Assembly (NCBI RefSeq): GCF_016793285.1
Contig: NZ_JAEUMO010000082.1
Coordinates: 1-32,665 of the forward strand
Source: Phenylobacterium sp.
Lineage (GTDB): Bacteria > Pseudomonadota > Alphaproteobacteria > Caulobacterales > Caulobacteraceae
DNA: 32,665 bases
Direction of reading: 5' to 3'
Shown: positions 20,189-24,689 of the stretch, piece after piece
Numbering within the stretch: the stretch's first letter is position 1
Layout of the letters: every line of letters begins with the position of its first letter
The notes under the pieces: model-generated
What the model was told of the DNA's origin: nothing
Database searches by the model: none
Seen by the model: only the letters and a program-made list of their open reading frames with translations
Made by a program: the position numbers and the translations under genes

Positions 20189-20229
20189 AAAAGAATCGGC
20201 CCGCAGCGGGGGATAGTCGCTGCGGGCCG
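20189..20229 (-). terminator. Strong rho-independent terminator downstream of hisG
   Basis: A perfect 12-bp GC-rich stem with loop ACTATCCCC, followed on the minus strand by ATTCTTTT. It would end either the hisSZG transcript, about 200 bases after the hisG stop, or a separate small RNA. Confidence 0.7.
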
Positions 20230-20311
20230 CCTTGAGCAGTCGCTCTGATAGAGCGGGCGTTTCCTCCCCGAAACGCCGGAGACCTCAGGACTTGGCGCCT
20301 TCATGTCTCTC
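20189..20311 (-). ncRNA. Candidate structured small RNA ending in a rho-independent terminator
   Basis: Read on the minus strand, four stems follow one another. GAGAC/GTCTC lies at 20305-20309 and 20279-20283. An 8-bp stem GGCGTTTC/GAAACGCC lies at 20256-20277, with the loop GGGGAG on this strand. A 6-bp stem CGCTCT/AGAGCG lies at 20241-20255. A perfect 12-bp stem CGGCCCGCAGCG/CGCTGCGGGCCG lies at 20197-20229, followed by ATTCTTTT. A TTGACT (-35-like, containing a GACTC site) lies about 30 bases upstream. An open frame also crosses the region (20116-20331), but it resembles no known protein. It could instead be hisG 3' UTR structure. No known RNA family was recognised. Confidence 0.45.
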
Positions 20312-20430: not shown

Positions 20431-21378
20431 TCAAAAGACACGTTCTTTCAGTTGCTTGAACGACGGGCAGGCGACGTCGAAGACGAAGTCCGGCTTCGAG
20501 ACCGTGACCGGCCCGAGCCCGGCCGTGCTGAGCGCGAGCGCCGAGTCCGCCACCTGCGCGGAGTCGACCAGCAGGCCGTTCGGCCGCCGCGACGCGCCGG
20601 CCACGACAAGCGCCGCGACGGCTGCGGCTTCGGCCGCATCGCCGCGGGCCGGCCAGGCCAGGGTCGCGCTCCTCAGCGCCGCGGCGCGGGCCTCGACGAT
20701 GCGCAGCAGCCGCTCGGCCGCGGCCAGGGCCTCGTCGTCCCAGGCCGCGCGCAGGCTGGCGGCGAGTTGCGCCTGGCTCTTCAGCATCACGCCGTCGCTG
20801 AGCACCTTCAGCCCGTTGGCCTGCAGCGTCGCGCCGGTGGTGGTGATGTCGACCACCAGCTCCGCCGCGCCGGTCGCCGGCGCACCCTCGGTCGCGCCGC
20901 CCGACTCCACGATGCGATAGTCGGCCACGCCGTGCCGCGCGAAGAACACACGGGTCTGCGCCAGGTACTTCGTCGCCACCCGCATCCGCCGCCCCGTGCG
21001 CGACAGGTGCTCGTGGGCCACCTCCTCCAGGTCGGCCATGCTCTCGACGTCGAGCCAGCTCTTGGGCGCGGCCACCACCAGGTCGGCGCGGCCGAAGCCC
21101 AGCGCCCGCAGCAGCAGCACCCGGCTGTCCAGGTCCTCGCCGCGCTCGCGCAGCAGGTCCTCGCCGGTGACGCCCAGGTGGACCTCCCCCGCGTCCAGCG
21201 CATCGGCGATGTCGGCCGCCGACAGAAGCCGCACCTGTGCGCCCGGCACACCCTTCAGGCTGGCGACATAGCCGCGCGCGCCGCCGGTCACCTCGAGCCT
21301 GAGCCCGCTGTCCCCCAGCCAGCCTTCGACCTGTTCCTTCAGCCGCCCTTTGGACGGAATGGCGATGATCAGGCTCAC
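20431..21378 (-). CDS. hisG: ATP phosphoribosyltransferase catalytic subunit (short-type core with C-terminal extension)
   Basis: A 315-residue protein catalysing the first step of histidine biosynthesis (ATP + PRPP to phosphoribosyl-ATP). The core (residues 1 to about 225) has LIIAIPSKGRLKEQVEGWL, GVTGEDLLRE, RIVESGGATEGAPATGAAELVVDITTTGATLQANGLKVLSDG, the last containing the PRPP-binding loop. This corresponds to the short, HisZ-dependent class. About 90 residues follow, ending KPDFVFDVACPSFKQLKERVF, that do not match the ACT-like domain of long HisG enzymes. The GTG at 21378 overlaps the hisZ stop as GTGA, so translation is coupled. The stop lies in an 8-bp palindrome (CTTTTGAC/GTCAAAAG, 20416-20437). 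Confidence 0.94.
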   Translation of the reverse strand: MSLIIAIPSKGRLKEQVEGWLGDSGLRLEVTGGARGYVASLKGVPGAQVRLLSAADIADALDAGEVHLGVTGEDLLRERGEDLDSRVLLLRALGFGRADLVVAAPKSWLDVESMADLEEVAHEHLSRTGRRMRVATKYLAQTRVFFARHGVADYRIVESGGATEGAPATGAAELVVDITTTGATLQANGLKVLSDGVMLKSQAQLAASLRAAWDDEALAAAERLLRIVEARAAALRSATLAWPARGDAAEAAAVAALVVAGASRRPNGLLVDSAQVADSALALSTAGLGPVTVSKPDFVFDVACPSFKQLKERVF

Positions 21379-22520
21379 GCTTCGCCCTCCGCCCCTTCGC
21401 CATCGCACCAGGCCCGCCAGGGGCGGACCATGCAGCCCACCGCGCGCGCGTCGCCGGCGCCGCCGAGCCGCGCCAGCAGCCCGTCGTAGCGGCCGCCCAC
21501 GGCCACCGGCCGCTCAGGCCCGATCCCGGCCGAGCGCACCTCGAAGGTGATGCCGTCGTAGTAGTCGAAGGCGTGACCCAGCGCCGGCGTGAACCGGGTC
21601 GCGTCGGCGGGCGCGACGCGCGCGAGCTCCTGAAGCCGCGCCTCCCAGCCGCCGAGCGCCGCCTTCAGGGCGGCGTCGTTCCGGCCCGCCAGGTCCCGCA
21701 CCTTGGCGAAGGCATAGGCCGGCTGATCGTCGATCGCCATGAAGGCGCGGACCGCGTCGGCCTGGCCCTCGCTCAGCGCCGGCGCCTTGGCCGCCTCGGC
21801 CTTGCGCACCAGCCGCGCGGCGATCTCCGCCGGTCCGCGGCCGCCCACAGGCTCCACGCCGGCCAGCGCCCAGACCTCCTCCAGCAGCACCGCGGCCTGC
21901 GTCTCGCTGAGGCCCGCCAGCAGTCCGGCGAGGGCGCCGCCGCCGTTCGCGTCCGACTCGCCCACGCGCGACAGCTCGTTCCAGAGCAGCCGCGGACGAC
22001 CCGCCACGCGCTTCAGCCGCGCCGCGAGACCTTCCGGCAGGTCCAGGCTCTCCACGAAGGCCGAGAACAGCGCCACGTCGCCCAGCCAGAGCGACAGGTC
22101 CCCGCGCCCGCCCGCCCCGGCAGCCCGCCAGGCCAGGCCGGCGATCTCGGCGTCCGCCGCCTCCACGCTGCCGCCGCCGGGCGAAAACATCTCCAGCCCG
22201 ACCTGCACGAACTCCTCGGGCCTGTCGGCGCCCGACGACGCCCGGAACGCGGCGCCCTCGTACCAGTAGGCGCCGGCCGCGCGGCCGCTTGCAATATGCT
22301 GGCGCGCGATGGCCACGGTGAAGTCCGGCCGCAGGCAATTCTCGGCCCCGCCTTCGGATTGCACCACGAACAGCCGCGCCCGCATCGCCTCGCCGGCGAG
22401 GTCGAGCAGCAGGTTCAGCGGCTGGAGCAGCGGCGCGTCGGCGCGCTCGGCGCCGGACGCCTCCAGGGGCGCGCGGACGTCGGCCGTCACGTCGGCCGGG
22501 ACGGCGGGTTCGACGCGCAT
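21375..22520 (-). CDS. hisZ: ATP phosphoribosyltransferase regulatory subunit
   Basis: A 381-residue class II aminoacyl-tRNA-synthetase-like protein without synthetase activity. It pairs with short HisG to make the active, histidine-inhibited enzyme. Visible are LLQPLNLLLDLAGEAMRARLFVV, NCLRPDFTVAIARQHIASG, AGAYWYEGAAFR, EFVQVGLEMF and, near the end, GHAFDYYDGITFEV and PVAVGGRYDGLLARLGG, the remnants of HisRS motifs 2 and 3. The ATG overlaps the last base of the hisS stop (TGATG), and its own TGA overlaps the hisG start, so all three genes form a tightly coupled operon. No second reading of this frame is likely. Confidence 0.94.
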   Translation of the reverse strand: MRVEPAVPADVTADVRAPLEASGAERADAPLLQPLNLLLDLAGEAMRARLFVVQSEGGAENCLRPDFTVAIARQHIASGRAAGAYWYEGAAFRASSGADRPEEFVQVGLEMFSPGGGSVEAADAEIAGLAWRAAGAGGRGDLSLWLGDVALFSAFVESLDLPEGLAARLKRVAGRPRLLWNELSRVGESDANGGGALAGLLAGLSETQAAVLLEEVWALAGVEPVGGRGPAEIAARLVRKAEAAKAPALSEGQADAVRAFMAIDDQPAYAFAKVRDLAGRNDAALKAALGGWEARLQELARVAPADATRFTPALGHAFDYYDGITFEVRSAGIGPERPVAVGGRYDGLLARLGGAGDARAVGCMVRPWRAWCDGEGAEGEA

Positions 22521-24037
22521 CAGCCTGCGGCGTCCAGGATGCGCCGCAGCGCCGCGACCAGCTCGCCCCGCGGGATCGTCTGCTGTCCCGGGCGTTCGGC
22601 TCGCCACTCGGCGTTGTCGGTGACTTTCGAGGCCAGCTCCCGGCCGAGGTCGAGGTCCTTCACGGTCACCGTCCCGGCCGCCAGTTCGTCGTCGCCGACG
22701 ATGATGGCGGCGGGCGACAGCCGCCGGTCGGCGTACTTCATTTGCGCCTTCATGCCCGACGCGCCGAGGTAGACCTCCGCCGGGATTCCGGCGGCGCGCA
22801 CCTCGCGGGCGACGGCGAAGTAGTCGGCCATGCGGTCGGGCGAGAACGCGATCACCACGACCGGCCCGCGCGCGGCCTTCGCCATGTCGCGGCCCGCGGC
22901 CCTGAGCGCCGAAGCCAGCCGCGAGACGCCGAACGAGAAGCCGGTGGCCGGCGTCCGCTCGCCCGTGAACCGCGCCACCAGATCGTCGTAGCGGCCGCCT
23001 CCGCCGATGGAGCCGAACCGCATCGGCTGGCCCTTTTCGTCCAGCGTCGAAAGCAGCAGTTCGGCCTCGAACACCGGACCGGTGTAGTATTCCAGCCCGC
23101 GCACGACCGACGGCTCGACGATGGCCCGGTCCGCGCCCACGCCGAGCCCCTTCAGCGCCGCGTCGATCGCGGCCAGTTCCGCCAGCCCCTCGTCGCCCTC
23201 GGCCGAGCCGCCGACCACATCGGCCAGCTTCGCCAGGGTCTCGGTCCGCCCGCCGACGCCCGCCGCCGTGAACGCCAGCACCCGCTCGGCCGCGGTCGCG
23301 TTGAGACCCGCGCCCTTGGTGAAGGCGCCGGACTCGTCCTTGCGGCCCTCGCCCAGCAGGAGCCGCACGCCGTCCGGCCCCAGCCGGTCCAGCTTGTCGA
23401 CCGCACGCAGCACCGCGAGCTTCTGGCCCTCGTCGGTCACGCCGGCCGCCGCCATCAGGCCGTTGAGGAGTTTGCGGTTGTTGATCTTGATCACCGCCGA
23501 GCCCGCCGGCAGGCCGGCAGCCTCCAGCCCCTCGGCCACCATGGCGATGATCTCGGCGTCGGCCTCGGGCCGCGCAGACCCGACGGTGTCGGCGTCGCAC
23601 TGTACGAACTCGCGGAAGCGGCCCGGCCCGGGCTTCTCGTTGCGCCACACCGGTCCGTAGGCGTAGCGCCGGAAGGGCTTGGGCAGCGTCTCCCAGTTCT
23701 GCGCGGCGAACCGCGCCAGCGGCGCCGTCAGGTCGTAGCGCAGCGCCACCCATTGCTCGTCGTCGTCCGTCAGGGCGAAGACACCCTCGTTGGGCCGGTC
23801 GGTGTCGGGCAGGAACTTGCCCAGCGCGTCGACGTATTCGAACGCGCCGGTCTCCAGCGGCTCGAAGCCCCAGCGCTCGTAGACCCCGCTGACCGCGGCC
23901 AGGATCGCCCGCTCGCCGACGACGTCGCGCGCGCGCCGGTCGATGAATCCGCGGGGCGTTCGGGCTTCGGGGCGCTCGCTCATGGCGGGGCGCTTAGCCT
24001 CTGGGGCGGTCTCACTCAAGGAAGGAAGGGCGTCCAT
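22520..24037 (-). CDS. hisS: Histidyl-tRNA synthetase, divergent alphaproteobacterial type
   Basis: A 505-residue class II synthetase that charges tRNA-His. Motifs in order: FIDRRARDVVGERAILAAVSGVYERWGFEPLETGAFEY near the start; motif 2 region RRYAYGPVWRNEKPGPGRFREFVQCDADTVG; the histidine-binding loop VRGLEYYTGPVFEAEL; motif 3 FGVSRLASAL; and the anticodon-binding domain from VVVIAFSPDRMADYF onward. The motif 2 loop differs from the usual bacterial form (RxGxMFRRERPQxGRYRQFHQ). It fits the distinct HisRS lineage of alphaproteobacteria that do not rely on the extra G-1 of tRNA-His. The ATG at 24037 is preceded by GAGAG. Expression is probably controlled by the leader attenuator upstream (24085-24202). 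Confidence 0.95.
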   Translation of the reverse strand: MDALPSLSETAPEAKRPAMSERPEARTPRGFIDRRARDVVGERAILAAVSGVYERWGFEPLETGAFEYVDALGKFLPDTDRPNEGVFALTDDDEQWVALRYDLTAPLARFAAQNWETLPKPFRRYAYGPVWRNEKPGPGRFREFVQCDADTVGSARPEADAEIIAMVAEGLEAAGLPAGSAVIKINNRKLLNGLMAAAGVTDEGQKLAVLRAVDKLDRLGPDGVRLLLGEGRKDESGAFTKGAGLNATAAERVLAFTAAGVGGRTETLAKLADVVGGSAEGDEGLAELAAIDAALKGLGVGADRAIVEPSVVRGLEYYTGPVFEAELLLSTLDEKGQPMRFGSIGGGGRYDDLVARFTGERTPATGFSFGVSRLASALRAAGRDMAKAARGPVVVIAFSPDRMADYFAVAREVRAAGIPAEVYLGASGMKAQMKYADRRLSPAAIIVGDDELAAGTVTVKDLDLGRELASKVTDNAEWRAERPGQQTIPRGELVAALRRILDAAG

Positions 24038-24084
24038 GGTCGTCTCTCTGCGATTGAGGCGACGGACGAAGCTGGAGAAGGTCG

Positions 24085-24163
24085 AGCCCCGTCCGCGTTG
24101 GCGGGGCTTCGGGAGGGGTCCGCGTCAGGCCACGCGCACGCCGTCCGAACCCGCCCGGGTCGG
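24085..24163 (-). promoter_or_regulatory. Transcription attenuator of the hisS-hisZ-hisG operon
   Basis: On the minus strand four segments can pair in exclusive ways. Segment 1, CCGACCC (24163-24157), starts at the base after the last His codon of the leader. Segment 2, GGGTTCGG (24152-24145), pairs with 1 across a GGGC loop with one bulge. Segment 3, CCGAAGCCCCG (24112-24102), contains CCGAAGCC, which pairs with 2 at 7 of 8 positions. It also contains AGCCCCG in inverse form, which pairs with segment 4, CGGGGCT (24091-24085). Stalling at His codons would mask segment 1, allow 2:3 and prevent 3:4. Stem 3:4 lacks a clear U run, so it may be a weak terminator. Confidence 0.75.
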
Positions 24164-24202
24164 ATGGTGGTGATGGCCGTGATGGTGCGAGGACCGCGTC
24201 AT
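24125..24202 (-). CDS. Histidine leader peptide (seven His codons)
   Basis: This 25-residue frame, MTRSSHHHGHHHHPTRAGSD plus GVRVA, has seven His codons in eight positions (24187-24164), then ends in TGA 87 bases before the hisS start. It is too His-rich to be chance in front of hisS, hisZ and hisG. It is a classical attenuation leader: low charged tRNA-His stalls the ribosome in the His run, next to segment 1 of the attenuator. The ribosome-binding site is poor (AGAAG about 11 bases upstream). The frame stays open further upstream, so the ATG at 24202 is chosen by position and sense. It starts 13 bases after the DUF4826 stop. Confidence 0.85.
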   Translation of the reverse strand: MTRSSHHHGHHHHPTRAGSDGVRVA

Positions 24203-24215
24203 GACGGCGGCGCTT

Positions 24216-24689
24216 CTAGTGCAAGTTCGTCGACGAGTCACGGTCCGGCACGTCCTCGGGCCAGAGTTCGTCGTCGCGGACCATCTCGAGCAGGAAGTCC
24301 GCCCGGCTCGCAAGCATGTCGGCAAACTCCACGGGGAGGCACGTGTCGCCGAGCGTCGCAGCGTCTTCGGGCGTGGCGGCGATCGCGCGCCGCCAGCTCT
24401 CTGCGAAGCGCCGCATGGCGCGTCTGGGATTGTTGCAGTCCTCCGAGGACGAGCAGTAGTCGGTGGGCAGATCGCCGCTGATGACCCACCATCCGACGGA
24501 CCCGGGCGCTTTCAGGCTCTCCACGGCCCACACGGAGACGTACGGGGCCATGCGCCAGCCAGGCCATTCCCCGACCTGGCCATGGCGACCCGGCTGGCGC
24601 TGCAGGTAGTCGACGACCTGATCGCGCATCTCCGCGCACCAGGCCTCCTCCTCGTCCGGGGTCAGTTCATCGTCGTCATCGCTCATCAC
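24216..24689 (-). CDS. DUF4826-family protein
   Basis: A 157-residue acidic cytoplasmic protein with no signal peptide or membrane helix. It starts MMSDDDDELTPDEEEAWC and contains the conserved segment WPGWRMAPYVSVWAVESLKAPGSVGWWVISGDLPTDYC, then RRAMRRFAESWRRA. These Trp-rich and GDLPTDY motifs are the mark of DUF4826. No function is known. Five cysteines are present. The stop lies only 13 bases before the histidine leader peptide on the same strand, so the his operon promoter may lie inside this gene, or it may share the transcript. No link to histidine is known. Confidence 0.8.
   Translation of the reverse strand: MMSDDDDELTPDEEEAWCAEMRDQVVDYLQRQPGRHGQVGEWPGWRMAPYVSVWAVESLKAPGSVGWWVISGDLPTDYCSSSEDCNNPRRAMRRFAESWRRAIAATPEDAATLGDTCLPVEFADMLASRADFLLEMVRDDELWPEDVPDRDSSTNLH

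Follow-up and report, generated by a model that had tools for sequence, protein, structure and literature searches.

A histidine-codon leader of six RNA segments ahead of hisS-hisZ-hisG in Phenylobacterium and Caulobacter: a probable attenuator of the hisS translation start

The question raised by this locus is what a short frame rich in histidine codons does ahead of a histidyl-tRNA synthetase gene, and at which step of gene expression it would act. The DNA analyzed here (the window) is a stretch of 32,665 nucleotides, positions 1 to 32,665 of contig NZ_JAEUMO010000082.1 in the Phenylobacterium sp. assembly GCF_016793285.1; hisS, a hisZ-like gene and hisG lie on its minus strand (Table 1). 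A first-pass annotation had proposed that a His leader peptide and competing folds stand ahead of these genes, and this is supported by our analysis, as the arrangement is conserved in relatives. Based on comparison of related loci and on modelled folds, it is probable that the element is a six-segment His-codon leader-peptide attenuator that acts mainly on the hisS translation start and, via the overlapping genes, on hisZ and hisG.

Table 1. Features of the hisS leader region and adjacent genes (window coordinates).
Feature	Position	Strand	Remarks
hisG	20431..21378	-	Pfam HisG; likely GTG start overlaps hisZ stop (GTGA)
hisZ-like gene	21375..22520	-	Pfam tRNA-synt_His, without anticodon domain; start overlaps hisS stop (TGATG)
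hisS, histidyl-tRNA synthetase	22520..24037	-	Pfam tRNA-synt_His and HGTP_anticodon; ATG 24037-24035
Segment 6, GAGAGACGACC-ATG-GACG (hisS ribosome-binding region and start codon)	24031..24048	-	5:6 swap test p 0.0001; computed fold with ribosome at leader stop
Segment 5, AGCTTCGTCCGTCG	24060..24073	-	Swap tests, pair counts, computed folds
Segment 4, CGCGGACGGGGCT (24097-24085) and next two bases	24083..24097	-	4:5 swap test p 0.0001
Segment 3, CCGAAGCCCCGCC	24100..24112	-	3:4 swap test p 0.0001; pair counts
Segment 2, GGCGGGTTCGG	24145..24155	-	2:3 swap test p 0.0004; pairs with segment 3 in computed stalled state
Segment 1, CCGACCC	24157..24163	-	1:2 possible, nearly invariant; without covariation signal
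His leader peptide frame, 25 codons and TGA	24125..24202	-	ATG 24202-24200; TGA ends at 24125
Candidate leader promoter, GTGACTCG (24241-24234) and CTAGAA (24219-24214)	24214..24241	-	11 nt before leader ATG
Rfam sRNA family CC3513 (RF01528) match	24091..24257	+	31.8 bits, below gathering score of 40
Loci with second short ORF			L008, L009, L010, L012, L017, L019, L022, L031, L076, L112, L119, L146, L149, L156, L177, L187, L190

The leader peptide encoded in the window reads M T R S S H H H G H H H H P T R A G S D G V R V A, followed by a stop codon that lies 87 nt from the hisS ATG. Its His block (24187-24164) holds seven His in eight codons, as had been described for this 25-codon frame, and segment 1 does begin on the base right after the last His codon. 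The pairings 1:2, 2:3 and 3:4, all named previously, are present in the window, and a U run is indeed missing after 3:4. In the whole 4.49 Mb assembly, this leader is the one place with an exact CAY3-NNN-CAY3 pattern; with one mismatch tolerated, the pattern is found at 14 places. Taken alone, the folding energy of the 165 nt region is unremarkable (z -0.75, with 45 of 200 shuffles equally good), so the case for the element is comparative and is decided by its relatives.

Because the junctions between the three genes overlap, control of hisS translation could extend to hisZ and hisG. Directly downstream of hisG and on its strand is the sRNA CrfA (RF01527, window 20189-20311), which has been reported to be a carbon-starvation regulator; the CrfA-hisG neighbourhood is kept in L002, L004, L006, L008, L011, L012, L015, L016 and L022. 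On the other side of the leader, a 157-codon ORF (window 24216-24689, same strand as the leader) ends 13 nt before the leader ATG, and its TAG stop codon (24218-24216) falls within the candidate -10 box.

The 80 best hisS loci among named genomes were compared, and in 25 of them an HHHGHHH-type His leader stands ahead of the gene; Phenylobacterium, Caulobacter and unclassified Caulobacteraceae appear in the titles of these loci. No His leader was found within up to 500 nt upstream of hisS in any of 18 Brevundimonas and five Asticcacaulis loci. Within the window's genus, R1, a sense-strand covariance model of the leader built from 31 sequences, has matches in 92 of 101 genomes, or in 72 of 75 when those of good quality are taken alone. 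Among 299 genomes sampled from the order, 43 have a match at E 0.01, and scores above 60 bits are confined to genera g1, g22 and g6; among 385 sampled from the class, five have one at E 0.001, namely the window and four others with Thr-rich leaders. From 138 leaders, 118 were distinct and long enough and 57 remained below 80% identity; L059 (a divergent HRHHHH frame) and L075 were removed before alignments. Each of the 57 leaders contains 4-8 His; both C (194) and T (144) are used at the third position of these codons, yet the codons remain His. In L075, from a Hyphomonadaceae MAG, MKTRLHHHHQQT precedes hisS and a different hairpin (GAGGCGC...GCGCCTC) is followed by ATGTTTTCAT (TTTT); this is possibly a separate, terminator-type His leader. 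At L194 and L108 (genome G130, genus taken as Caulobacter), the downstream segments are kept and the His codons and leader start are missing, which may represent a natural loss of the sensor part.

Many leaders share a common sequence in the 3:4 region after the leader stop, GAGCCCCGC...GCGGA(C/T)GGGGCTC. In relatives, segment 5 is often C(G/A)TCCGTCG and is followed by the Shine-Dalgarno (SD) sequence, GACG and the hisS ATG, which make up segment 6. Pairing was assessed with a swap test, in which duplex energies of native segment pairs are compared with those of segments exchanged between species (10,000 permutations, 57 leaders). Native pairs were more stable than swapped ones for 2:3 (p 0.0004) and for 3:4, 4:5 and 5:6 (each p 0.0001). 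The 11 other combinations gave p values of at least 0.038 (1:3, 0.038; 4:6, 0.054; 1:2, 0.48; the rest at least 0.33), leaving only the neighbouring helices 2:3, 3:4, 4:5 and 5:6 as significant. Helix 2:3 had been non-significant in a first set of 55 leaders (p 0.14) and reached its p value of 0.0004 in the 57 below 80% identity. Helix 1:2 is present and nearly invariant in the 57 leaders and gives no covariation signal. A 1:4 pairing, considered because segments 1 and 5 look alike, was rejected, as native pairs were weaker than swapped ones (p 0.997). In both the swap and the Wilcoxon tests leaders are treated as independent and relatedness is controlled by the non-neighbouring pairs only; the eleven other combinations share the same relatedness and so serve as its control.

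Pair counts in the 57 leaders point the same way. For 3:4 and 5:6 together, 85.3% of cells are paired in a sequence-only alignment. Double-changed cells number 24, compared to 10.0 in shuffles, and none of 500 shuffles attains the covariation score; 5:6 alone, in one register, is paired in 75.3% of cells. For 4:5, 94.9% of cells are paired, with 23 double-changed cells against 9.1 and a score likewise reached by 0 of 500. Slid control registers pair in 33-43% (3:4 and 5:6) and 33-57% (4:5) of cells. As a single pair (CG 31, UA 21) supplies 21 of the 23 double changes in 4:5 and slid 3:4 and 5:6 still shows 13-22 double-changed cells compared to 24 in the true register, the independent events may be few. 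The helices 2:3, 3:4, 4:5 and 5:6 that covary are mutually exclusive, as expected of an amino-acid leader-peptide attenuator. The check suggested by the first-pass annotation, namely a search of relatives for a His-rich frame and compensatory changes, has thus been run, and both are present. Its four-segment fold ending in a terminator has to be extended: segments 5 and 6 exist too, and both 4:5 and 5:6 covary. On this sequence comparison the element is one of six segments, and a four-segment terminator is not its best reading.

A switch at the hisS start was also computed. When masking of the leader extends 10 nt beyond its stop, the predicted fold of the window is 3:4 together with a hairpin between segment 5 and the hisS start region; when it reaches only up to segment 1, the fold is 2:3 plus 4:5. 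Opening the hisS start region (-13 to +5) in the window costs 11.8 kcal/mol with a ribosome at the leader stop and 5.7 kcal/mol with one over segment 1. The corresponding means for the 57 leaders are 11.14 and 8.32 kcal/mol, and 47 of them shift in the direction of the model by more than 0.3, with three against (p 2e-9). Dinucleotide shuffles of the sequence from segment 2 to just before the start gave a mean difference of -0.06 compared to 2.78 for native leaders (p 4e-13), a control in which, as in the start-site statistics and the second-ORF table, starts were misplaced by a few bases in about five of the 57 leaders (L026, L133, L162, L183 and L189) as a result of an alignment with rare columns removed. 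Exact start positions were used for the swap test and opening energies. Swapping segment 4 between species lowered the mean opening-energy difference to 1.97 from the native 2.78 (p 0.014); swapping segment 2 did not reduce the computed effect (2.39 compared to 2.78, p 0.25). The accessibility of the SD hexamer alone is the same in both states (0.37 and 0.38), so the computed effect concerns the start codon and its surroundings. The Caulobacter example L082 shows no switch at equilibrium (9.2 in both states). By these computations 5:6, which covaries and raises the opening energy, behaves like the last helix of a sequestor-type (translational) attenuator.

The leader start and the hisS-side start differ in their upstream sequences. 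In 31 of the 57 leaders (54%), the end of a GCTATAG-like box (at least 6 of 7 positions) lies 7-11 nt ahead of the leader start, compared to 2.9% in shuffles, and none precedes the hisS-side start. SD-like cores show the opposite distribution: 42 of the 57 leaders have one ahead of the hisS-side ATG and 6 have one ahead of the leader ATG, counts subject to the misplaced starts mentioned above. In the window itself, the box (CTAGAA) is weak and overlaps the stop codon of the upstream ORF. The simplest reading is that the leader mRNA is probably leaderless or nearly so; 375 leaderless mRNAs have been described in C. crescentus (PMC4117421). A second short ORF is seen in about 17 of the 57 leaders (Table 1), in which the first ATG after segment 6 opens a frame other than that of hisS; 22 were tabulated, and 17 are left once the five leaders with misplaced starts are omitted. 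In the cases other than L119, this ORF ends within 10 nt of the hisS ATG or overlaps it. In the window and in L002-L007, the corresponding ATG lies in the hisS frame and gives an N-terminal extension.

We propose that transcription begins at the leader ATG or a few bases before it, so that the leader would be read without an SD sequence. With enough charged His-tRNA, a ribosome would reach the leader stop, 3:4 would form and the hisS start would be masked by pairing between segments 5 and 6. Under a shortage of charged His-tRNA, the ribosome would stall on the later His codons and cover segment 1, allowing 2:3 to form; segment 4 would then take segment 5 and leave the hisS start free.

A simple scan of the window identified no terminator and no sigma-70 promoter. 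As no terminator is seen, we place the output at the translation start, and transcription attenuation becomes the main rival. In its classical form, 3:4 would act as a terminator, either an intrinsic one with a poor tail or one helped by Rho, 2:3 would serve as the antiterminator, and 4:5 and 5:6 would be secondary; the two levels could also combine. We judge this unlikely but deserving of serious weight: 2:3 and 3:4 do covary, the C. crescentus ilv leader is reported to use a Rho-independent terminator (PMC4117421) and T-rich tails are found in the related leaders L204 and L209 (five T each) and L208 (TTTGTCGTTT), but only one of the 57 divergent leaders (4 of the 118 in all) has at least five T in the 8 nt after 3:4, and the covarying 4:5 and 5:6 are left unexplained. 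An intrinsic terminator with a U tract was rejected on the scan of the window and the lack of a T-rich tail in 56 of the 57. Since such a tail is so rare and segment 6 is the hisS start region, the element most likely acts on the translation start; the earlier aside that the mechanism might be partly translational pointed in the right direction. Segments 5 and 6 were missed in the first-pass annotation. It is extremely improbable that the leader merely aids hisS translation by reinitiation or coupling, with no sensing of histidine. Leader genes have been proposed as reinitiation aids (PMC4833913) and the second short ORF is closely joined to hisS in about 17 of 57 leaders, but the His run and the covarying helices would go unexplained, and 87 nt separate the leader stop from the hisS ATG in the window. 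Chance or artefact, for which the GC-rich sequence and the fold z-score of only -0.75 might be cited, has next to no probability in our view and is refuted by the conservation of the element (R1 in 92 of 101 genomes), the single CAY3-NNN-CAY3 place in the assembly and the covariation.

A further rival comes from the opposite strand, where CC3513 is the only family in Rfam to match the leader region at a low E-value (0.00059 for 501 bases). The relatives L002, L008, L012 and L022 pass the gathering score of this family, whereas the window is below it, and all eight matches in named loci (L002, L008, L011, L012, L015, L016, L022 and L026) are antisense to hisS. The family also matches the control genome Caulobacter vibrioides. 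Of 30 loci around CC3513 matches, 28 pass a strict threshold for a His leader on the opposite strand; L110 has a variant with one Gln and L108 has none. Read as its reverse complement, the consensus of the Rfam alignment encodes the His leader. We conclude that CC3513 corresponds to the antisense strand of the leader element; judging from these sequences, the family may be mis-stranded or may be a true antisense RNA. It is very improbable that the conserved element is this antisense sRNA and the His frame secondary. RF01528 does cover the region on the plus strand, and 58 of 199 genomes in a sample of the taxonomic family match it at E 0.01 (36 over the cut-off); however, the frame is conserved with His codons of mixed third base, the promoter-like box and start region run in the sense direction, a covarying partner lies within the hisS start and the score in the window is below the cut-off. 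Still, both strands could matter.

Related leaders with other codon runs were found among weak matches to R1. Twelve extra matches (L196-L207) were fetched and inspected. L196-L200 and L206 are Ile/Thr-type leaders (e.g. MLKTQIIITTKTTRLCGTLRVRAI) with no T-rich tail, and asd is the next gene in L197 and L199, where the opening energy drops from 10.8 to 5.8 and from 7.9 to 5.8, respectively. In L204, from a genome of the window's genus, the leader MRAFAMQLVNLLPTASGGPVRDVVR precedes ilvC and GGGGCTTTTTCTT follows the hairpin. L201 is located before a methyltransferase-like ORF and L202 and L205 before an acetyltransferase-like ORF (labels assigned by eye); inspection of L203 and L207 yielded no explanation for these matches. 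L208, L209, L210 and L211, from alphaproteobacteria outside the order, are Thr-rich leaders with a similar downstream module that precede thrS or thrS-like genes (L208, L210 and L211; thrS-like in L208) or asd (L209). Besides the T-rich tails of L208 and L209 given above, L210, L211, L197 and L199 have none, and the computed start-site switch is present in L209 (9.2 to 4.8) and absent in L208 and L210. Rather speculatively, segments 3-6 might be a portable alphaproteobacterial switch scaffold with an exchangeable codon run (His before hisS; Thr or Ile/Thr before asd and thrS-type genes). The hisS version in Phenylobacterium and Caulobacter would lack a U tract and act on the translation start of a leaderless mRNA, the synthetase adjusting the charging level that the leader reads, and CC3513 would either record this element on the wrong strand or be an antisense partner modulating the switch.

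Parts of this arrangement are familiar from other systems. Like the enterobacterial hisL leader (RF00514 His_leader), as outlined in PMC9413887, the element has a run of His codons in a short leader, folds set by a stalled ribosome and histidine genes downstream; unlike hisL, its target is hisS-hisZ-hisG, it has no T-rich tail, its last helix lies on the hisS start and its leader usually has no SD sequence. Membership in RF00514 was rejected, as window 23900-24400 gave no match up to E 10. In Bacillus, His-leader control has been predicted for hisZ and for the hisS paralog hisS*, with His codons before both genes as before hisS here, but those leaders were found by a terminator search in Firmicutes, and that study reports no similarity between Firmicute and proteobacterial leaders (PMC2965389). 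Sequestor-type attenuators are listed among amino-acid attenuators (PMC9413887). The translational ileS T-boxes of Actinobacteria likewise have a hairpin that hides the ribosome-binding site and no terminator, but sense uncharged tRNA directly, while the sensor here would be a translated His leader (PMC1262725). The trp leader rnTrpL/peTrpL of Sinorhizobium meliloti, also an alphaproteobacterium, has a leaderless leader-peptide frame such as we propose, but is a tryptophan attenuator upstream of trpE that yields a small RNA (PMC10117765). CC3513 occupies the same locus as the His leader but is annotated as an sRNA gene on the opposite strand.

C. crescentus leader peptides before trpS and the ilv operon are already in print (PMC4117421); "hisS" is absent from the main text of that paper, which also has supplementary lists of 94 new small CDSs. 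Our literature search found no paper describing this hisS leader in Caulobacterales, with two likely surveys outside its scope (10.1134/S0026893310010164, 10.1016/j.femsle.2004.04.005), and we consider it possible, if somewhat doubtful, that the leader has already been predicted in print. Neither His-leader control of hisS or hisZ nor RBS-hiding attenuators in general are new in themselves (PMC2965389, PMC9413887, PMC1262725). Within the literature searched, what appears to be new is the combination of a His leader with no SD sequence, six segments and a start-site output on hisS-hisZ-hisG in Caulobacterales.

If the proposed six-segment attenuator is correct, Caulobacter, a model for leaderless translation, would have an internal gauge of how far its His-tRNA is charged, with translation start rather than termination as the controlled step. 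This would form a feedback loop in which the synthetase acts on its own signal. The element also offers a testable explanation for the orphan Rfam sRNA family CC3513, the strand of which deserves to be rechecked, and it suggests that terminator-based searches can overlook amino-acid attenuators in GC-rich alphaproteobacteria.
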